A stretch of DNA of 37,190 nt, from assembly GCA_009787995.1 (NCBI GenBank), contig WQSH01000017.1, positions 1-37,190 on the forward strand, read 5' to 3'. This DNA is from Oscillospiraceae bacterium. Lineage in GTDB: Bacteria > Bacillota > Clostridia > Oscillospirales > Oscillospiraceae. This document shows positions 28,489 through 37,190 of the stretch, in pieces (positions within the stretch are counted from its first letter, which is position 1; each line of letters opens with the position of its first letter). The translations under genes and the position numbers were made by a program. Below the pieces are notes generated by a model. That model searched no databases and had not been told where the DNA came from. It saw only the letters and a program-made list of their open reading frames with translations.

Positions 28489-28517
28489 TTGACAAAAAAA
28501 GACGATTATGATAGGCT
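28489..28517 (+). promoter_or_regulatory. Possible promoter before the MFS transporter
   Basis: A perfect TTGACA (28489-28494) is followed after 17 bp by TAGGCT (28512-28517), a weak -10. TATGAT overlaps it but is too close to the -35. Another TATAAT occurs at 28386-28391 without a clear -35. The rest of the divergent gap 28334-28488 shows no other structure I can support. Confidence 0.4.
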
Positions 28518-28546
28518 TTTTCTCTCAGAAAGGTTGGTCACAAATA

Positions 28547-29767
28547 TTGAAAACTCAAAATCGTTGGCTCATAATAATCGTAAGCTTTGTCGCAAACCTA
28601 ATTGTTGGCTCCGCATACGCATGGAGCGTGTTTCAGCCTCGGCTGATTGAACTTTTTCACTACACGACCCCGCAAGCAAATATCGCATTCACCCTTTCGC
28701 TTGGCTTGGTGCCATTTGCAATGATTATTGCAGGGAAGGTGCAAGCAAAAATCGGTGTCCGCCTGACTATCCTTATAGGAGGGATAATTTTCGGGGCCGG
28801 TTTCATTTTGGCAAGATTTATTACGGAAAATGTCGCCACCCTATATCTCACATATGGCATGCTGGGCGGCATAGGGATTGGATTTGTCTATGGGTGCACT
28901 GTGCCTAACGCCGTGAAGTGGTTTCCGGATAAGCGCGGGCTTGCAGGCGGGATAATTGCCGGGGGCTTCGGAGGTGGGGCTGTCATATTTGCGCCGCTGT
29001 TTCGGAGTGCCGTCGAATCAATGGGGGTGCTTGAAACTTTCACAATATTTGGAATTATTTTCGGCATCGTGGTTATTATATGTTCGCTGTTTATATCTAC
29101 CCCGCCCGCTGACTTCAAACCTGTGGGATGGACTCCGCCGCAGACGGGGGGATCAGCCGCCGCCGCTGCCGGGCTCAATGTCGGCGAAATGCTAAAGACC
29201 ACCAGGTTTTACATCCTGTGGGCGGTATATACACTAGCTTGTGTGACCGGCCTGATGATTATCGCACATGCCGGGCATATCGCAGAGGTGAGGATTGGCG
29301 TGACCCCGGCCTCAGCGGCTACCGCAGTGGTATTGTTAGGCGTCGCCAATACGGCAGGGCGTTTGCTTTGGGGGGCTGTTTCCGACAAGATTGGTCGATA
29401 TCAGGCCCTTATTCTGATGTATGCTATGACAGCTGGAATGCTGCTTGTTTTGCACTCAGCAACCGATTTCACCTTGTTTGTCGTGTCTGTGATGGGCATT
29501 GGGTTATGCTTTGGCGGGTTCTTGGGGGTGTTCCCATCAATTTCCGCCGAAAATTTCGGCACGGCAAACTTGGGGATGAACTATGGTGTGCTGTTTATCG
29601 CATTCGGAGTCGCCGCCCTTGTCGGACCCAGGTTGGCTGCCACATTTTTTCAGTCAACCGGGTCACATTCGCTCGCTTTTGTCATCGCCACCATTATGAG
29701 CATCGTTGCCCTGGTAATAATGGTGCTCCTAATTGTTTCGCAAAAAAAGATAAAACATTCAAAATAA
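28547..29767 (+). CDS. MFS transporter, oxalate/formate antiporter (OFA) type
   Basis: A membrane carrier of about 406 residues with 12 hydrophobic segments. The beginning NRWLIIIVSFVANLIVGSAYAWSVF and GGIGIGFVYGCTVPNAVKWFPDKRGLAGGI match the OFA subfamily of the major facilitator superfamily, which carries small carboxylates. The start is uncertain: TTG 28547 follows AGAAAGG and fits the family, whereas ATG 28508 lies within the predicted promoter. It is followed by a CoA-transferase, so a carboxylate such as acetate, butyrate or oxalate is a reasonable cargo. That link is inference. Confidence 0.85.
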   Translation: MKTQNRWLIIIVSFVANLIVGSAYAWSVFQPRLIELFHYTTPQANIAFTLSLGLVPFAMIIAGKVQAKIGVRLTILIGGIIFGAGFILARFITENVATLYLTYGMLGGIGIGFVYGCTVPNAVKWFPDKRGLAGGIIAGGFGGGAVIFAPLFRSAVESMGVLETFTIFGIIFGIVVIICSLFISTPPADFKPVGWTPPQTGGSAAAAAGLNVGEMLKTTRFYILWAVYTLACVTGLMIIAHAGHIAEVRIGVTPASAATAVVLLGVANTAGRLLWGAVSDKIGRYQALILMYAMTAGMLLVLHSATDFTLFVVSVMGIGLCFGGFLGVFPSISAENFGTANLGMNYGVLFIAFGVAALVGPRLAATFFQSTGSHSLAFVIATIMSIVALVIMVLLIVSQKKIKHSK

Positions 29768-29794
29768 ATAATAGCGTATGGGAGAAAATTGAAC

Positions 29795-31093
29795 ATGGAT
29801 TGGAAAGATATTTACAAAGAGAGGCTTACCACGGCAGAAAAAGCAGTGGGGTTAATCAAATCAGGAAATAGGGTCGTAATAGGCCTGGGCGCCGGAGAGG
29901 CGACTGCCTTAGTCGATGCGATGGTAAAAAACCATAAGGCATACCGTGACGTGGAAATTGCACAAATGCTGCCGCTCGGAAAAACCGAGCACTCAGACCC
30001 GGGCATGGAGCCGCATTTTTGCTATAATTCCCTGTTTGTGTCAGGAAAATCAAGAAAGACGGTCAGCGATGGGCACGGCGACTATACGCCCTGCTATTTT
30101 TCGAAAATCCCCCTGCTATGGCATGAGGATTTGCCCGTGGATGTTGCAATGCTTCAGGTGTCCCCCCCCGATGAGCACGGTTTTTGCAGTTTGGGCGTTT
30201 CCGTGGACTATTCAAAAAGTGCCGCAGAGCACACCAAGCTGCTGATTGCCCAGGTAAATAAGCATATGCCGCGAACCCTAGGAGACAGTTTCCTCCACGT
30301 GTCGCAAATGGACTGCATTGTCGAACATGACCAGCCGCTCTTGTACCTTCCCGCCGCAAATATCGGCGAGGTTGAAAAGGCGATAGGTGGGCACTGTGCC
30401 AGCCTAGTGCGTGACGGTGACTGCCTGCAGCTTGGCATTGGAGCAATTCCGGATGCTGTGCTGCTGTTTTTAAAGGAACGGAAGGACTTGGGCATACACA
30501 CGGAGATGTTTTCCGACGGCGTGGTGGAGCTTGTTAATGCCGGAGTCATCAATAATTCGAAGAAGAACTTTAACCACGGAAAGATGCTTGCATCATTTTT
30601 GATGGGGACGCAGAAGCTGTACGACTTTGTGCATAACAATCCGATGGTATCCATGCACCCGACAGATTATACGAACGATCCATACCTAGCAGGGCAGAAC
30701 GACAATTTGGTGTCGATTAATTCCTGTGTTCAGGTAGATTTGCTGGGCCAGGTTTCTTCCGAGACTGTGGGTATGACCCAAATCTCCGGAGTGGGCGGGC
30801 AAGTGGACTTTGTCAGGGCTGCGGCAATCAGCAAAGGCGGGCGCTCCATTATCGCAATGCCGTCAACGGCAAAGGAGGGCAGCATCAGCAAAATTGTCCC
30901 AATCCTGGACGAAGGCGCAGTTGTGACGACAAACCGCAACGATGTGCAGTACATAGTCACGGAACACGGTGTCGCAAACCTAAGAAACCGGACGAATAGG
31001 GACAGGGCACGCATGCTCATCGACATAGCGCATCCGAAATTCAGGGAGCAGCTAAAAGAAGCTTTTAAACAGAGGTTCAAGACGGACTATTAG
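29795..31093 (+). CDS. Acetyl-CoA hydrolase/transferase family protein (4-hydroxybutyrate or butyrate CoA-transferase type)
   Basis: Moves CoA between acetyl-CoA and another short acid. The 432-residue protein matches the clostridial family in length and in LQVSPPDEHGFCSLGVSVD, LQLGIGAIPDAVL, the catalytic Glu237 in HTEMFSDGVVEL, SGVGGQVDFVRAA and the C-terminal VTEHGVANLRNRT. Glu238 is the active-site residue of the Clostridium aminobutyricum enzyme, only one position off. ATG 29795 follows GGGAG by 10 nt; TTG 29789 is too close. Its location after a carboxylate-type MFS carrier suggests uptake and activation of a fermentation acid. The exact acceptor cannot be told. Confidence 0.9.
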   Translation: MDWKDIYKERLTTAEKAVGLIKSGNRVVIGLGAGEATALVDAMVKNHKAYRDVEIAQMLPLGKTEHSDPGMEPHFCYNSLFVSGKSRKTVSDGHGDYTPCYFSKIPLLWHEDLPVDVAMLQVSPPDEHGFCSLGVSVDYSKSAAEHTKLLIAQVNKHMPRTLGDSFLHVSQMDCIVEHDQPLLYLPAANIGEVEKAIGGHCASLVRDGDCLQLGIGAIPDAVLLFLKERKDLGIHTEMFSDGVVELVNAGVINNSKKNFNHGKMLASFLMGTQKLYDFVHNNPMVSMHPTDYTNDPYLAGQNDNLVSINSCVQVDLLGQVSSETVGMTQISGVGGQVDFVRAAAISKGGRSIIAMPSTAKEGSISKIVPILDEGAVVTTNRNDVQYIVTEHGVANLRNRTNRDRARMLIDIAHPKFREQLKEAFKQRFKTDY

Positions 31094-31130
31094 AGGAAGG
31101 CGCAAAATTAGACTGTCAAGAAAACATGGC

Positions 31131-31170
31131 GGAGCGGGGGGGCTTTGATAGCTTCCCGCTCCATATATTT
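31131..31170 (+). terminator. Terminator after the CoA-transferase
   Basis: GGAGCGGG (31131-31138) pairs with CCCGCTCC (31155-31162), with a smaller GCT/AGC stem inside the loop, and is followed by ATATATTT. The structured repeat copy 2 starts immediately after it. Confidence 0.75.
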
Positions 31171-31297
31171 AGAAAACCTAGTAGCAGGCATTGAGAAGCC
31201 TGTACGCTCATCGTAGAGAGGGAATTCCGGCTACTGTCACGTCAGCTGACCGAACGTAGAGGAGTGTGCAGGCTTCTCAATGCCGGACAGATAGCAG
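31171..31297 (+). repeat. Structured dispersed repeat, copy 2
   Basis: The second copy of the element at 22-148, same strand and same 127-nt length. The 15-bp terminal stem is identical (31188-31202 with 31269-31283). The inner stem TACGCTC has one C-A mismatch here (GAACGTA). The GTCA/TGAC hairpin has loop CGTCAGC instead of CGGAAC. The single-stranded-looking GAGGAGTGTG on the 3' side is fully conserved. It lies between a terminator and the convergent exporter gene, 11 nt beyond that gene's stop. Confidence 0.8.
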
Positions 31298-31308
31298 GTG
31301 AATAACAA

Positions 31309-33150
31309 TTACTCCACATAGTGCTGGGCTTGTGCGTCCCATAGCTTGCGGTACAGGCCTGACTCTTCGGCCAGCAATGCGTCGTGCTCGCCGCGCTGCA
31401 CCATCTGACCGCCCTCGAAGACAGCTATGTCGTGGCAGAAACGGCAGGAAGACAGGCGATGCGAGATGAAAACGGCGGTTTTGCCCCCGATAGTCTGCTC
31501 GAAAGTTGAATAGACCTCGTACTCGGCAATAGGGTCGAGCGCGGCAGTCGGCTCGTCCAGGACTACTATCGGCGCATCCCTGTACAGCGCTCTTGCGAGC
31601 GCTATTTTCTGTGCCTCGCCGCCGGAAACCTGTGTCCCATCCTCGTCGTATGTTTTGTATAACATGGTGTCTAGCCCATCCGGCATGGTGCTCAGACGCT
31701 CTGAAAACCCTGCGCCGTCCAAACGCTCGGTCACGAGCGCCTCGTCGAATTGTTCCCCCACAGCGACATTCGCGCCAAGCCTGAAGGGCAGAATCTGGAA
31801 ATCCTGGAAAACCACGGAAAACAATGCGATGTACTGCTCGTAGTCATATTCCCTAATATCGACGCCATCAAGCAATACCACCCCCTCAGTCGGGTCGTAC
31901 AGGCGGCAGAGCAGCTTAATCATCGTCGTCTTGCCGCTGCCGTTTAGGCCTACTACGGCGAGCCTCTGCCCTGCGTTTAACTTGAGGTTGAGGTTCTTGA
32001 GGGCGTACTCCTCCACACCGGGATAGCGGAAGGAAACGTTGCGGAACTCGAGTTCGTGGTCATGCCCTTGCGCCTTTGCCGTGGGCCTTGTGCCCTTGAC
32101 CAGCAAGGCGGGCAAGTTCAAGAATTCGCGCATAGGCTTTAGAAAGGCCACGTTGTTGATAAGCTGGCCAAATGTCGAGACGATTGAGCCGACAGCCCCT
32201 GCAAAAGCCGTCACTGCGCCGACGCTCTGGACAATGCCGCCTACCGTGGCGGTGCCGCCCAATGCGCCATATCCGGCGAGCATGTAAAATCCGCCGCTGA
32301 GAATGGCAAGTATGCCCAGCATCAGCCCCTGCGTCCTGGCAAAATAGAAGAAGAATGGCATCCACGCCTTTACATTGAAGCTGTTGCGGAAAATGCTCAC
32401 CAGCGCTGCGCTTTGGTCGTAGAGGCGGATGTCCTTCGCAGCCTCGCCTGCCTTTATGTAGTCGCCGTAATAGCCTGCAGCGGTGTTGGCTTTGGCGTTT
32501 TCAGCATACACCTTCTTTAGGATGCTCTGAGCATTCATGTGCATGCGGAAAACAAGCAGAAGCCCAAATATGAAAAATCCAAACAGCGCCCATGCAGGCC
32601 AACCAGAAATGCCAACGCCCACAGCAAGCGGCCCGAAGATGAGCAACAAGGAAAAAATCATTGAGAAAAACTGCTCCGCCGCCCGGGTTGAGACAAAGTA
32701 AACATTTAAAAAGCCCAGCCCATTGCCCCTTGCGTGCGTGTCCATCCGGGCCAGTGCCTCGCTGATTTTGCTGTCCTCAGCGTGGGCGTAGTCCATCTTG
32801 ATGAACTGCTCCGCTTGCATCATAAGCATTTTTTGATAAATCCGCTCATAGTTGGAATCAGTTTCGAGTTCGCGGGTCAGAAAAGCCCTGGCAGCCGACA
32901 TCACGAAGGTTGCGGCGACAGTGATGCAGACGTAGAGCACGATTGAGTGGACGTCCTTCGCTCCGCTCAGCTGGTCGAGCACCCGCGCCGAGAAAAATAG
33001 CACCAGCATGGGCTGCGCCGCCGTAAGGAGTGCCTGCAGCAGCATCAGCGGCAAGAATGCGGGAGTCAACTTGGATACGAGCTTGTAGCCATAGCCCATT
33101 AGGCTGAGCGTCTCGCGCAAGGATAGCCTTGCGTCTTGAGAATCAGTCAT
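31309..33150 (-). CDS. ABC exporter half-transporter (permease-ATPase), second gene
   Basis: A 613-residue protein with an N-terminal six-helix exporter domain (about 25-340) and a C-terminal ATPase. Walker A GLNGSGKTT (401-409), signature VSGGEAQKIALARAL, Walker B VVLDEPTAALDP and the switch His in ISHRLSS are all intact. It starts directly after the stop of its partner (TAAATG) with a purine-rich GGAGAGGGGGCGGAG site, so the two likely form a heterodimer. The substrate is unknown. Linkage to a LytTR regulator and a LiaF-like protein suggests drug, peptide or cell-envelope stress export. The stop lies 11 nt from repeat copy 2. Confidence 0.9.
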   Translation of the reverse strand: MTDSQDARLSLRETLSLMGYGYKLVSKLTPAFLPLMLLQALLTAAQPMLVLFFSARVLDQLSGAKDVHSIVLYVCITVAATFVMSAARAFLTRELETDSNYERIYQKMLMMQAEQFIKMDYAHAEDSKISEALARMDTHARGNGLGFLNVYFVSTRAAEQFFSMIFSLLLIFGPLAVGVGISGWPAWALFGFFIFGLLLVFRMHMNAQSILKKVYAENAKANTAAGYYGDYIKAGEAAKDIRLYDQSAALVSIFRNSFNVKAWMPFFFYFARTQGLMLGILAILSGGFYMLAGYGALGGTATVGGIVQSVGAVTAFAGAVGSIVSTFGQLINNVAFLKPMREFLNLPALLVKGTRPTAKAQGHDHELEFRNVSFRYPGVEEYALKNLNLKLNAGQRLAVVGLNGSGKTTMIKLLCRLYDPTEGVVLLDGVDIREYDYEQYIALFSVVFQDFQILPFRLGANVAVGEQFDEALVTERLDGAGFSERLSTMPDGLDTMLYKTYDEDGTQVSGGEAQKIALARALYRDAPIVVLDEPTAALDPIAEYEVYSTFEQTIGGKTAVFISHRLSSCRFCHDIAVFEGGQMVQRGEHDALLAEESGLYRKLWDAQAQHYVE

Positions 33151-34986
33151 TTACTCCGCCCCCTCTCCATTGCTATCTTGATAGTAGCTGGCCTGTACTT
33201 CAAACATATTGGCGTAGAGCCCGCCAAGAGCCATGAGTTGTTCATGCGAGCCCTGCTCTGCGATGGCATTGCCGTCAATCAGCAAAATGCGGTCGCAGAA
33301 GCGCGTGGAAGCGAGGCGGTGCGATATGTAGACAGACGTCTTGCCCTCAGTAAGCTCCGCATAGCGCTGATATACCTCGTTTTCGGCAATCGGGTCGAGC
33401 GCTGCGGTCGGCTCGTCGAGCACTATGACCGGGGCGTTTTTGTATAGTGCCCGGGACATTGCGAGTTTCTGTTTCTCGCCGCCCGACAGCTCTGCGGCGT
33501 CCTGATGGACGGCGCGGACAAGCAAGGTGTCCTCCTTGTCGGGCAGGCTGTCTGTTTTTTCGCTCAGCCCGGTCAGCTCCAGGCATCGGCGCACATTCTC
33601 CCTGTCGGTCAGTTCTGGCGGCTGCTGGGATATATTCTCCGCAACAGAGGCGGACAGCATGTGGATATCCTGAAACACCGTTGAGAAAAGAGTGTAATAT
33701 TCATCTCGGTTGTATGCACCCACGGGGCTGCCGTTTAGAAGCACCTCGCCCTCACTTGGAGAGTATAGGCCGCACAGCAGTTTGACGAATGTTGTTTTTC
33801 CGGCGCCATTTGCGCCGACGATGGCTATGCGTTCCCCTGCGTCTATAGTAAGGTCGATGCCCGAGAGCGCAGCCTTTTCCGCTTTTGGGTATGTATAGCT
33901 GACGTTTCGGAACTCTATTGAGGGAGGAAGGTTGTCCCCTTGAGGGAGTGGCGCACCTGTGCCTGTGTTCATGCGGTCGGGATACTCCAGTGCCGCAGCT
34001 ATATCTCTCATTTCGACGCATGCCCTGTTAAGGTCGCTTGCGGCGGTCAGGATGCCGGATATCCAGCCTGCCAGGGCGCCTATTGCGGCGAAGATAAAGA
34101 CAAATTCGCCCAGCGTCATGCGCCCGTCCAGTATCAGCCATATTAGAAATGCGTACGCAGCGCCGTCCCGCAACAAAATCATCAGCGCATCCGCCAATTG
34201 GGCATGCATATTCTTGCTTAACAGCTTGCGCTCCGCTTTTCGGTGGGATGCAAACTCTGCGCCGTAAATGCCTTTCAGCCAGCCGAATGCGCCGTATAGC
34301 CTGATGTCTTTGGCGGCGTCGGGGTTTCGCAGCGTCTCGCTGAGGGAGTTGAGTTTGCGGAACTTCTTGCTCCGCTCATCCCGGGTGGCCTCCATGTAGT
34401 TGCGCGCGCGGCGGAGCATCAGCCAGTTTATGGTGGATGTGATGAACAATATGACGAGTATGAGCGGGTGAACGACTGCGATTACGCTGGCGTAGAGCAG
34501 GAAGCCGAGGCTGTTGGACAGCAGCTCAACCAGCGTGCGGGGGATGTTCATAGCAGGAGCGTGGTTGGAGGTTGCCGCCTTCATCGCCTTGTCGTCTACG
34601 GTCTTGAAATCGGGGTCTTCCATCAATTCAAAGTCCATGTTCATCATCTTTTTCATTTTTTGGACTAAGATTGTACCGACGCCGACAGTGCCGACAGCTT
34701 CGTTTGTAATGCTGTCGGTAAATGATTTTATGTAATTGACTACGACCAATAGCGCAGCCAAGCTGCCCACAGTGATAAAGAACTGCCTAGGCTCGACTTG
34801 CGCCGCAATTTGGTCCAGCACCACCCTGGGCATTAGTATGCCGAGGTACGGCAGTGCCACGCGCATAATGACGGCAATGCCGCATATGATGAGCACCGAT
34901 TTCTGTTCGCTCCAGTAGAGTGAAAGCGAGCTGGAGATACTGGTGCGGAGCATTTTGCCCCGAGTTTGTCCATTTATTTGTTCCAA
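33151..34986 (-). CDS. ABC exporter half-transporter (permease-ATPase), first gene
   Basis: A 611-residue permease-ATPase fusion. Membrane segments begin at about residue 30 (LIICGIAVIMRVALPYLGIL). The ATPase has Walker A GANGAGKTT, signature LSGGEKQKLAMSRAL, Walker B VIVLDEPTAALDP and switch His in ISHRLAS. Both partners therefore have complete sites, unlike many heterodimers with one degenerate site. The start is TTG after AAAGGAGA. A TTGACA/TAGTAT promoter and paired regulator sites lie just upstream, shared with the divergent LytTR operon. Confidence 0.9.
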   Translation of the reverse strand: MEQINGQTRGKMLRTSISSSLSLYWSEQKSVLIICGIAVIMRVALPYLGILMPRVVLDQIAAQVEPRQFFITVGSLAALLVVVNYIKSFTDSITNEAVGTVGVGTILVQKMKKMMNMDFELMEDPDFKTVDDKAMKAATSNHAPAMNIPRTLVELLSNSLGFLLYASVIAVVHPLILVILFITSTINWLMLRRARNYMEATRDERSKKFRKLNSLSETLRNPDAAKDIRLYGAFGWLKGIYGAEFASHRKAERKLLSKNMHAQLADALMILLRDGAAYAFLIWLILDGRMTLGEFVFIFAAIGALAGWISGILTAASDLNRACVEMRDIAAALEYPDRMNTGTGAPLPQGDNLPPSIEFRNVSYTYPKAEKAALSGIDLTIDAGERIAIVGANGAGKTTFVKLLCGLYSPSEGEVLLNGSPVGAYNRDEYYTLFSTVFQDIHMLSASVAENISQQPPELTDRENVRRCLELTGLSEKTDSLPDKEDTLLVRAVHQDAAELSGGEKQKLAMSRALYKNAPVIVLDEPTAALDPIAENEVYQRYAELTEGKTSVYISHRLASTRFCDRILLIDGNAIAEQGSHEQLMALGGLYANMFEVQASYYQDSNGEGAE

Positions 34987-35024
34987 TGTATGAATCTCCT
35001 TTAGGCAATTTAAGAACTTGCCGC

Positions 35025-35053
35025 ATACTACAGCAAGCCAAGGAGGCTGTCAA
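35025..35053 (-). promoter_or_regulatory. Promoter of the ABC exporter operon
   Basis: On the minus strand TTGACA (35053-35048) and TAGTAT (35030-35025) are separated by 17 bp. The nearest regulator half-site ends 10 bp upstream of the -35. The transcript would start near 35018, about 30 nt before the TTG start. Confidence 0.75.
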
Positions 35054-35063
35054 CAGGTTTGCG

Positions 35064-35137
35064 CTAAGTGGTAGGGAAATGAGGGGTAAGTGGTGTGTAT
35101 TAAACCGACCACTTACAGGCATATATTTACCACTTGG
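35064..35137. promoter_or_regulatory. Four LytTR-type 9-bp repeats in a mirror arrangement
   Basis: ACCACTTAC-like 9-mers occur four times. Two read on the minus strand (35064-35072, ACCACTTAG; 35086-35094, ACCACTTAC) and two on the plus strand (35108-35116, ACCACTTAC; 35129-35137, ACCACTTGG). Each pair is a direct repeat with a 13- or 12-bp gap, the two-helical-turn spacing typical of LytTR-domain binding sites. The inner two are exactly symmetric about 35101. They point away from each other toward the two promoters. The LytTR protein encoded next door is the obvious ligand. Confidence 0.8.
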
Positions 35138-35171
35138 CGAAAAACTATATCCAAAACCGGACATCATGCGC

Positions 35172-35177
35172 TATAAT
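35172..35177 (+). promoter_or_regulatory. Perfect -10 box of the LytTR operon
   Basis: TATAAT at 35172-35177, but the -35 position 17 bp upstream (35149-35154) reads ATCCAA, a poor match. It lies at the exact mirror position of the exporter -10. A good -10 with a bad -35 suggests dependence on the activator bound at 35108-35137. Start would be near 35184. Confidence 0.65.
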
Positions 35178-35204
35178 GCTGATTGCGATGAAAGGGGTGA
35201 TATG

Positions 35205-35660
35205 ATGAGGTTTCGCATTGAGTTCATACCAAAGGAAACGGACGAAGAAATAGTGATCCGGTGCCACAGCCTTGATGAGAACGTCAAGAGGCATTGTGAA
35301 GCAATCGAATCGCTATTAGACGACAGCCCTGCCATAGTGTACTACAAGGATGATATGGAGTTTTATTTGCCCAGCAGCTCCGTTTTATTCTTTGAGACAG
35401 ATGGAGAAATCGTTTACGCACACACAAAAAGCGATATGTTTAAAGTCAATTACCGCCTTTATGAGCTTGAAGCCATTTTGCCGCCGGAATTTTCAAGAAT
35501 ATCAAAATCCACCGTTGCAAACAGTTCACAAATATTGTCTCTGAGCAAAAATATATCCTCATCGGCATCTGTCCAGTTCTTCGGCACGCATAAGCAAGTA
35601 TTCGTATCAAGGCTTTATTTTAAGAGTTTGAAACAGAAATTAAGTCAAAGGAGAAGGTAA
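35205..35660 (+). CDS. LytTR-family DNA-binding regulator
   Basis: A 151-residue protein without a receiver domain. The C-terminal two thirds resemble a LytTR DNA-binding domain: YYKDDMEFYLPSSSVLFFETD, VYAHTKSDMFKVNYRLYELE, FSRISKSTVANSSQILSL and an end with FVSRLYFKSLKQKL. The first 45 residues (RFRIEFIPKETDEEIVIRCH) match the short N-terminal extension of stand-alone LytTR regulators. Two ATGs lie in a row. The second (35205) is better placed after AAAGGGG; the longer frame upstream overlaps the promoter region. It probably controls itself, the LiaF-like gene 1 nt downstream and the divergent exporter. Confidence 0.88.
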   Translation: MRFRIEFIPKETDEEIVIRCHSLDENVKRHCEAIESLLDDSPAIVYYKDDMEFYLPSSSVLFFETDGEIVYAHTKSDMFKVNYRLYELEAILPPEFSRISKSTVANSSQILSLSKNISSSASVQFFGTHKQVFVSRLYFKSLKQKLSQRRR

Positions 35661-35661
35661 A

Positions 35662-36567
35662 ATGAAAAGGTATAAGATTGGGAATATAGTATGGGGGCTG
35701 CTGTTTATAGTCGCCGCAGGCATGATTGTACTGCACCTCATGGGTCTTTTGGGCGAATTCAGCGTGTGGTCGCTGCTTCTAAGCATCCCCTTAGCAGGCG
35801 GGGCAGTGTGGAGTGCGATTAGGAGAGAGTGGTGGGGGATGTTTATGCTGATGGGTTTCTTGGTGTTAATCTACCGGAGAAATATTGAGTATGCGCTTGA
35901 CATCAGCATCGGCTTCTGGGCGATTTTTGGCATTGCGGCACTTCTGGCAATCGGCTGTTCCCTTATTTTTGGAAAAAAGGGGAAAAAAAAGCTAATAAAT
36001 GTTAACCTCGGGCACAAAAACGGCAAATCATATTCGAGGCGCACCGGTGAGAATGTCCGCTATAAAAACAGCGACAGAGGGAACCGAGGATATGACATCC
36101 ATGTAAGCAGAGGAAAAAAAGGCAAGGATGTCCACATTGTAAATGTCGATGGCGAGGACGTTCACGTCTTTAACGCTGACGACATTGGGGACGACGATGA
36201 CGACGGCGATGAGCACACCGTCGAGAATGTGAGCGGTGATGAAATATATTTCGAAGAGCGGTTTTCAGGGACGAGCAAGTACATAAGTTCTGAAAACTTG
36301 TCATACGTCAGCATCGATAACAGCTTTGGCTCAATGGAGGTCTACTTTGACAATGCAACGCTTTCACCCGAGGGCGCAGTGGTGGACATCAGCAACAGCT
36401 TCGGAGGGGTCGAGCTGTACATACCCCGCGAGTGGAATGTTATAAATAATGTCAGCACTTCCTTCGGGGGCACCGATGCTCCGGAGCGCGCACAAAAAGA
36501 AGGCGCGCCCACCATCACAATTTGCGGCTCAAACAGTTTTGGCGGTGTAGATGTAGAGCTAATCTAA
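35662..36567 (+). CDS. LiaF-like membrane protein
   Basis: A 301-residue protein with four predicted membrane segments (about 8-30, 34-50, 57-71, 79-103), a long basic then acidic linker (DDIGDDDDDGD near 174-183) and a C-terminal domain of LiaF/DUF2154 type. That domain carries four repeats of the form NSFGGVEL (near residues 220, 245, 266 and 291). LiaF proteins hold back cell-wall stress signalling at the membrane in Firmicutes. Here it pairs with a LytTR regulator rather than a LiaRS two-component system, so it may modulate that regulator. AGGAGAAGG precedes the ATG. The stop overlaps the convergent MFS gene. Confidence 0.82.
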   Translation: MKRYKIGNIVWGLLFIVAAGMIVLHLMGLLGEFSVWSLLLSIPLAGGAVWSAIRREWWGMFMLMGFLVLIYRRNIEYALDISIGFWAIFGIAALLAIGCSLIFGKKGKKKLINVNLGHKNGKSYSRRTGENVRYKNSDRGNRGYDIHVSRGKKGKDVHIVNVDGEDVHVFNADDIGDDDDDGDEHTVENVSGDEIYFEERFSGTSKYISSENLSYVSIDNSFGSMEVYFDNATLSPEGAVVDISNSFGGVELYIPREWNVINNVSTSFGGTDAPERAQKEGAPTITICGSNSFGGVDVELI

Positions 36568-37190
36568 CCCCTAAGCTTCGCATTATATCGCTTGTCTGAT
36601 GCAAAGAAGATGTAGACTAGCAGCCCGAGTGCCATAAGCACCGCCCCTGCCCAGAACACGAACCTGAAATCAAAGACGTCTATTAACGCACCGTGTAGCA
36701 AAGAGCCTACCGCAAAGCCGATGTCGATGGAAGTGAAAAAGGCGCCTGACGCAGTCCCCCTCCTTGCGGCGGAGCAGCGCTTGAAGATGAGCGAGTTGAA
36801 TGTGGGGTTGACTGCGCCCTGTGCAAGCCCAAGGGGGAAGCCGAGGGCGACGAGCGCAGGCAAGGTTGTGAGGAACGGCAGGATGATGTATCCGGCAATC
36901 AGGGCTATTAGCCCCGGAATCAAGACAAAATCGGAGCCGCGCCTGTCGACGACCTTGCCCATTAGCATGCGGGAAACGAAGACGCCGGCGGCACTGAAAA
37001 TAAAATATAGTGAAGGGTTGCCAATGCCGGTGCTTATGGCGTATGCGGGCAAAAATAAGGTTTTGCCCGCCATGCCCATAAATATCAGAGTCATGGCCGC
37101 AATGGGCTTGAAGACTGCGTACTCAAAGCCTAAAAACGTTTTGGGCAGCGGCTCGTCGGGCACGGAGGAAGTTGTTGTTGCGGCAGCCTT
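36564..37190 (-). CDS. MFS transporter, C-terminal half (runs off the window)
   Basis: The visible 208 codons encode about six membrane segments, from AVFKPIAAMTLIFMGMAG to GAVLMALGLLVYIFFASDKRY, including FSAAGVFVSRMLMGKVVDRRG, the repeated MFS loop motif. The frame stays open to the window edge through an Ala/Thr/Ser linker, which is probably the central loop of a 12-segment carrier. The GTG at 37163 is therefore likely internal. The substrate is unknown. Its stop overlaps that of the LiaF-like gene, so the two are tail to tail with no room for a separate terminator. Confidence 0.85.
   Translation of the reverse strand, partial: KAAATTTSSVPDEPLPKTFLGFEYAVFKPIAAMTLIFMGMAGKTLFLPAYAISTGIGNPSLYFIFSAAGVFVSRMLMGKVVDRRGSDFVLIPGLIALIAGYIILPFLTTLPALVALGFPLGLAQGAVNPTFNSLIFKRCSAARRGTASGAFFTSIDIGFAVGSLLHGALIDVFDFRFVFWAGAVLMALGLLVYIFFASDKRYNAKLRG

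Follow-up and report, generated by a model that had tools for sequence, protein, structure and literature searches.

Do the four ACCACTT boxes that lie between two divergent operons of an Oscillospiraceae bacterium serve a single regulator and, if they do, are both operons switched in the same direction? The window analysed here is the whole 37,190-nucleotide stretch of contig WQSH01000017.1 (assembly GCA_009787995.1). Near its right-hand end a LytTR–LiaF-like operon is read from the forward strand and a two-gene ABC exporter operon from the reverse strand (Table 1), with the four boxes between them in a control region spanning 35025-35177. On the regulator side the order is ACCACTTAC-12-ACCACTTGG-11-ATCCAA-17-TATAAT, whilst on the exporter side it is ACCACTTAC-13-ACCACTTAG-10-TTGACA-17-TAGTAT, and the centres of the four boxes follow one another in steps of 22, 22 and 21 bp.

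Table 1. Predicted genes and control elements of the two divergent operons (positions in the window)
Feature	Position	Strand	Evidence
ABC exporter half-transporter 2, abutting half-transporter 1	31309..33150	-	PF00005, 101.6 bits
ABC exporter half-transporter 1, TTG start	33151..34986	-	PF00005, 107 bits
-10 of exporter operon, TAGTAT	35025-35030	-	layout, promoter scan
-35 of exporter operon, TTGACA	35048-35053	-	layout, promoter scan
Proximal LytTR box, exporter side, ACCACTTAG	35064-35072	-	sequence layout, shuffle tests
Distal LytTR box, exporter side, ACCACTTAC	35086-35094	-	sequence layout, shuffle tests
Distal LytTR box, regulator side, ACCACTTAC	35108-35116	+	sequence layout, shuffle test
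Proximal LytTR box, regulator side, ACCACTTGG	35129-35137	+	sequence layout, shuffle test; kept in closest relatives
Weak -35 of regulator operon, ATCCAA	35149-35154	+	poor -35 also in three closest orthologs
-10 of regulator operon, TATAAT	35172-35177	+	also TATAAT in three closest orthologs
LytTR-domain regulator, no receiver domain, 151-152 aa	35202..35660 (start ATG 35202 or 35205)	+	PF04397
LiaF-like membrane protein (LiaF-TM and LiaF C-terminal domain)	35662..36567	+	PF22570, PF09922

An earlier, sequence-only reading of this DNA had described the region as a near-perfect mirror image around 35101, made up of two promoters, one with a good -35 and one with a poor -35, and LytTR-type direct repeats with gaps of 12 and 13 bp beside the regulator gene. 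These descriptions hold. Reflection about 35101 carries each -10 box and each inner half-site exactly onto its counterpart, with the outer half-sites missing theirs by 1 bp; the regulator gene adjoins the boxes; and in a simple promoter scan of 34900-36700, which listed six sites against 2.8 in shuffles, the exporter promoter scored 10 of 12 matches with a -35 of 6/6, the regulator promoter being missing from the list because its -35 is poor. The symmetry, however, does not extend beyond the elements themselves: even at the best axis only 33 of 81 positions match their mirror partners, boxes included, and the rest of the sequence is not mirrored. From the end of the inner box to the -35 the distance is 32 bp on each side (13+9+10 on the left, 12+9+11 on the right), so that the mirror image arises because two such promoters stand back to back (13+10 equals 12+11). 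Mirror symmetry as a mechanism in itself was rejected, since back-to-back placement suffices and the other sequence is unmirrored.

The pairs are not chance. The exact pair ACCACTTN{13,16}ACCACTT has two matches in the 2,419,784-base genome, one per strand and both at this spot, against none for the reversed control pattern in the same genome, and when the upstream region was dinucleotide-shuffled 200 times, no shuffle attained either the left or the right pair. When one mismatch was allowed in searches of the window's own genome, with position 4 left free, a 12-bp gap found the right pair only (two control matches) and a 13-bp gap found the left pair and two other places (no control matches). 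As further targets, G000:C4:43697 and G000:C5:30401 were set aside, each falling inside an opposite-strand ORF (547 and 586 aa, respectively).

The regulator matches PF04397 with 60.4 bits over residues 54-146, its sole detected Pfam family, and a ribosome-site-like AAAGGGG stands ahead of its start at 35191-35197. Searched against the PDB as a single sequence it gave no match at E 0.001; a profile built from 15 sequences (the regulator and 14 homologs) matched four distinct PDB sequences, with the response-regulator LytTR domain 3d6w at E 3.2e-7 and three AgrA sequences at a best E of 5.2e-6. The second gene of the operon follows after a gap of 1 bp. Its product is LiaF-like, as had been proposed, with PF22570 (LiaF-TM) at 34.2 bits (cut-off 27) and PF09922 (LiaF-like_C) at 29.9 bits, which is 0.9 bit over the cut-off of 29; the NCBIfam LiaF model NF040535 scores far under its own cut-off. 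Against the PDB the single LiaF-like sequence gave a lone, meaningless match (E 0.88) and the LiaF profile none at E 0.1. By analogy with related systems (see below), this protein is the probable partner holding the regulator. It also carries, between its membrane part and its C-terminal domain, an extra charged stretch of ~60 residues that is absent from the three closest orthologs. On the exporter side, a ribosome-site-like sequence for half-transporter 1 is found at 34996-35001, and the ATPase domain is C-terminal in both half-transporters. No Rfam family matched in the window at gathering score. Beyond the LiaF-like gene, a convergent MFS transporter gene occupies 36564-37190, its frame running off the contig end.

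What kind of system is this? The available text of PMC6193735 describes the LytTR Regulatory System (LRS) as a receiver-less LytTR regulator with a membrane inhibitor gene directly downstream and positive autoregulation through repeats. These are 9-bp direct repeats, mostly 12 bp apart (11 or 13 in a minority) and strongly biased to a position 10 bp upstream of the -35; among the Table 3 promoters are those of Streptococcus pneumoniae, ACCACTTAC-12-ACCACTTGC-10, and Roseburia intestinalis, ACCACTTAC-13-ACCACTTG-11 (PMC6193735). Gel shifts in that study show HdrR binding to the repeats, reporters show that the repeats are required for activation and positive autoregulation, and each of five S. 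mutans membrane proteins is required to hold its own operon down (PMC6193735).

Membership calls for a membrane protein with a DUF3021 or DUF2154/LiaF-type domain as well as for the receiver-less regulator and the spaced repeats. The present locus has a LytTR regulator of 151 aa lacking a receiver domain and, directly downstream after the 1-bp gap, the gene of a membrane protein of the LiaF type; its regulator promoter reads 9-12-9 and then 11 bp to the -35, or 10 bp if the spacer is taken as 18. The HdrRM and BrsRM systems of Streptococcus mutans likewise consist of a short LytTR gene followed immediately by a membrane protein gene, with 9-bp direct repeats 12 bp apart before the -35 whose letters are nearly identical to those here (PMC6193735), and HdrM shares with our LiaF-like protein the LiaF C-terminal domain, DUF2154 (PMC6193735, PMC11237479). 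The same pairing of a LytTR regulator with LiaF-TM and LiaF C-terminal domains appears in PMC11237479, which in its accessible part reports a gene association, LytTR genes sharing operons with LiaI-LiaF-TM/Toastrack proteins. Unlike HdrRM and BrsRM, the locus appears to have a second, inverted set of boxes serving an ABC exporter operon read in the other direction, whereas ABC genes linked to LRS in PMC6193735 are, in the text available, likely co-transcribed with the LRS. A search of open-access literature, with few preprints among it, turned up no account of a mirrored promoter shared by an LRS and an exporter. All three sequence features fit, with binding, activation and membrane inhibition to be expected by analogy, and we regard it as very probable that the locus is an LRS of the HdrRM kind, a class that the sequence-only reading had not named, with the divergent exporter as a target.

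Two other known systems are less close. On the model of the LiaFSR envelope-stress system, the LiaF-like membrane protein would be the probable negative partner. LiaFSR has such a protein in common with the locus, the output protein here being a LytTR DNA-binding protein, and no LiaS kinase and LiaR response regulator were found beside LiaF among the scanned proteins. In response regulators of the AgrA/ComE type, direct repeats lie about two helical turns apart. These share the LytTR DNA-binding domain; no receiver domain is present on the LytTR protein here, and neither a histidine kinase nor any other kinase or receiver domain was detected in the seven proteins scanned (28508-37163, the contig ending at 37190).

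The mechanism that we propose runs as follows. At rest the LiaF-like membrane protein, likely an inhibitor, would hold the regulator, which an envelope or drug signal (our guess) would set free. Each direct-repeat pair would then be occupied by a regulator dimer on a single face of the DNA, immediately ahead of the -35, and RNA polymerase would be recruited to both promoters; this would boost the ABC exporter and, by positive feedback, the regulator's own operon. Some basal activity is to be expected of the exporter promoter because its -35 is good, and the regulator promoter should depend more on the activator because its -35 is poor. One small regulator probably turns on its own membrane-partner operon together with the neighbouring export pumps, and the idea of one switch for both operons, put forward in the sequence-only reading, is also our best reading. 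A paralog among the seven LytTR matches in the window's genome could act here too.

How far is this arrangement conserved? Near related LytTR–LiaF loci the boxes recur on the regulator side, whilst beside the regulator the exporter-side boxes occur, among the loci compared, in the window only. A regulator match is present in 26 of 60 genomes, own included, and 15 loci were compared: the window, the 13 best-scoring relatives among the 60 genomes, and WRAK01000017, the one relative confirmed out of 83 stretches in a scan of genome contigs. A LiaF-like gene adjoins the regulator in all 14 relatives (in G016 its C-terminal part only). A sense-strand box pair within 300 bp upstream, at a shuffle p<0.05, is found at 13 of the 15 loci, three of these pairs being weak (p 0.040, 0.035 and 0.025). 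At the remaining two a pattern scan finds pairs further upstream, before the MFS gene that precedes the regulator (L014) and about 400 bp ahead of the regulator (L019). At other LytTR loci, of which L024 alone was checked for LiaF and had no match, none of eight had a sense-strand pair at p<0.05. The three closest orthologs (73-75% identity) keep boxes, spacing and TATAAT, and their -35 sequences are likewise poor (TTCCCA, TTCCCA and TGCCCA), as one would expect where the promoter depends on an activator.

Across the 15 loci a strong antisense-strand pair occurs in the window only, the L013 pair (p=0.04) being at about chance level. The four-box pattern AAGNGGTN{14,16}AAGNGGTN{5,35}ACCNCTTR, a strict one that letter variants would escape, was found in 2 of 394 genomes of the order, as was its reversed form; the two were the window's own genome and G421, where the match lies inside a 379-aa ORF and was taken as chance. 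That sample excluded the window's genus siblings, which were searched apart: 1 of 19 genomes (own) had the pattern, with no control matches. The exporter stands beside the regulator in the window only. The neighbours of the three closest regulator orthologs are, as read from ORFs, ribosomal protein genes (G012), a phosphatidyltransferase-like gene (WRAK01000017) and the contig end (G018), and beside none of the three is there a left-hand pair.

Further clues come from orthologs of the exporter, of which four (G005, G011, G007 and G010) show 64-71% identity. Two of them, in G011 and G005, have boxes, and do so away from any LytTR–LiaF pair. In G011 the order ACCACATAC-13-ACCTCTTGC-10-TAGACA-17-TAATAT (attained in 0/200 shuffles) has the window's 13-10-17 layout; here the exporter is on a different contig from the LytTR–LiaF pair, the latter lying far from the ends of a 262-kb contig. 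The G005 exporter has the strong pair ACCGCTTAG-13-ACCTCTTAC, followed 12 bp later by a weak third box, CCCTTATAC, and 10 bp after that by TAGACA-17-TAGTAT. G007 and G010 have no boxes within 300 bp upstream of the exporter; in these a same-strand ORF lies 24 bp ahead or overlaps, so there is no promoter gap. We infer from these arrangements that the exporter brings its own LytTR promoter, which here would stand back to back with that of the regulator and so account for the mirror image. The G005 genome (90% completeness) has no match to the window's regulator but eight other LytTR matches, and another LytTR protein may serve its exporter.

This last case bears on the first alternative, in which the right pair serves this regulator, the left pair another LytTR protein, and the operons are mere neighbours. 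Both the boxed G005 exporter and the seven LytTR matches of the window's genome could be accommodated by such an arrangement, yet the left and right boxes are nearly identical, with ACCACTTAC as the distal box on both sides, whereas position 4 differs among boxes at other places in the genus, and we consider separate control improbable.

A second alternative, close to the suggestion in the sequence-only reading that the regulator might repress or tune the exporter whilst activating its own operon, supposes that the exporter is otherwise constitutive from its TTGACA promoter and is repressed or damped by the regulator. With a perfect -35 that promoter could indeed fire unaided, and the lack of the left pair beside the three closest regulator orthologs would also suit this explanation. 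Against it, both exporter boxes lie wholly ahead of the -35, clear of the promoter; their spacing is that of the LRS promoters, for which activation by HdrR was shown (PMC6193735, available text); and the G011 and G005 orthologs retain boxes with the less perfect -35 TAGACA, G011 repeating the 13-10-17 layout. Repression is thus not borne out and is, in our view, quite unlikely. Finally, the probability that the boxes play no part in regulation, being similar by chance or derived from a repeat, is negligible: a degenerate pair pattern does occur near control frequency across the genus, but the exact pair is found nowhere else in the genome and has no control match, each pair fits a promoter, and the pair recurs at most of the related loci. 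Co-activation of both operons fits better than exporter repression, because both sides have what appears to be an activator layout.

If one regulator co-activates the exporter, are other genes of the genus boxed in the same way? The pair pattern ACCNCTTN{14,15}ACCNCTT was matched 36 times across 17 of 19 genomes and its reversed control 31 times across 15 of 19, and at such a frequency a pair counts only with a promoter or by orthology. Ten of the 36 were picked by eye and inspected; six lie upstream of a gene (L108, L109, L110, L111, L114 and L115) and four are not promoter-like (L112, L113, L116 and L117). As the six are pattern-picked places, their shuffle p-values are no independent test. 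In G012, whose regulator ortholog is 75% identical and where the window's exporter was not matched at E 1e-60 (21 of 58 candidates scored), two of the inspected places hold up: L108 (G012:C1:74500-79100) and L109 (G012:C3:97000-102000) have, in that order, a boxed TldD/PmbA-like gene, with three boxes ahead, and a boxed MFS_3-type exporter, the latter preceded by ACCGCTTAC-12-ACCACTTGG-10-TTTACA-17-TATAGT. Box pairs also stand ahead of MFS genes in G016 and G011. A transporter gene is in, or divergent from, the regulator operon at at least 4 of the 15 loci, a count uncontrolled for the background frequency of transporters: besides the window itself, an ABC gene lies 98 bp past the LiaF gene in WRAK01000017, an ABC ATPase gene 14 bp past it in G037, and an MFS gene precedes the regulator in G016.

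Measured from the end of the proximal box to the -10 in 21 promoters, the distance is 32-35 bp in nine, 54-55 bp in eight and elsewhere in four, the second register being one 21-bp step beyond the first; the automated choice of -35 and -10 behind these values is rough (for the G011 exporter it gave a register of 31, against 33 in the comparison of exporter orthologs). An ACC occurs 12 bp past the proximal box in 6 of the 21 and 13 bp past it in one more, other offsets up to 44 having 0-2. Together these sequence patterns suggest that some members of the genus have promoters with three boxes; in the text of PMC6193735 that is available, LRS promoters are described as pairs only. A further, weaker ACC box, displaced by one step of 21-22 bp towards the -35, can be seen in LRS and exporter promoters at L013, L015, L017, L020, L111, L114 and L115.

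A more ambitious reading would make the four boxes, all on one face of the helix, one cooperative operator, with two dimers head to head at its centre and all-or-none co-switching, and would see across the genus a portable module of 21-bp steps (two or three boxes) that puts differing exporters (ABC, MFS) under a conserved envelope-sensing LytTR–LiaF pair, the pump being changed and the sensor kept. This we offer tentatively, as possible but rather unlikely.

LRS are a widespread and little-studied class of sensory system, whose signals and targets are mostly unknown. The novelty here, which extends the known LRS kind modestly, lies in the divergent exporter as a probable target and in its counterparts at other places in the genus. 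That boxes of the LytTR–LiaF type stand at exporters of the multidrug type, in cis here and in relatives apparently in trans, suggests that for at least some LRS the answer to envelope or drug stress is the production of pumps, and the compact promoter pair offers a test bed for such a response.

Two further observations were made along the way. At L110 (451-675, in G015) a box pair lies ahead of a short Cys/Thr-rich ORF of 74 aa, which looks like a bacteriocin-type peptide gene and closely follows a LytTR gene as long as that of a response regulator. Upstream of a second short LytTR gene of G012 (L036, G012:C42) the box core forms an inverted repeat, AAGTGGT-12-ACCACTT, within a longer palindrome, which may act as an operator or else terminate the preceding gene.
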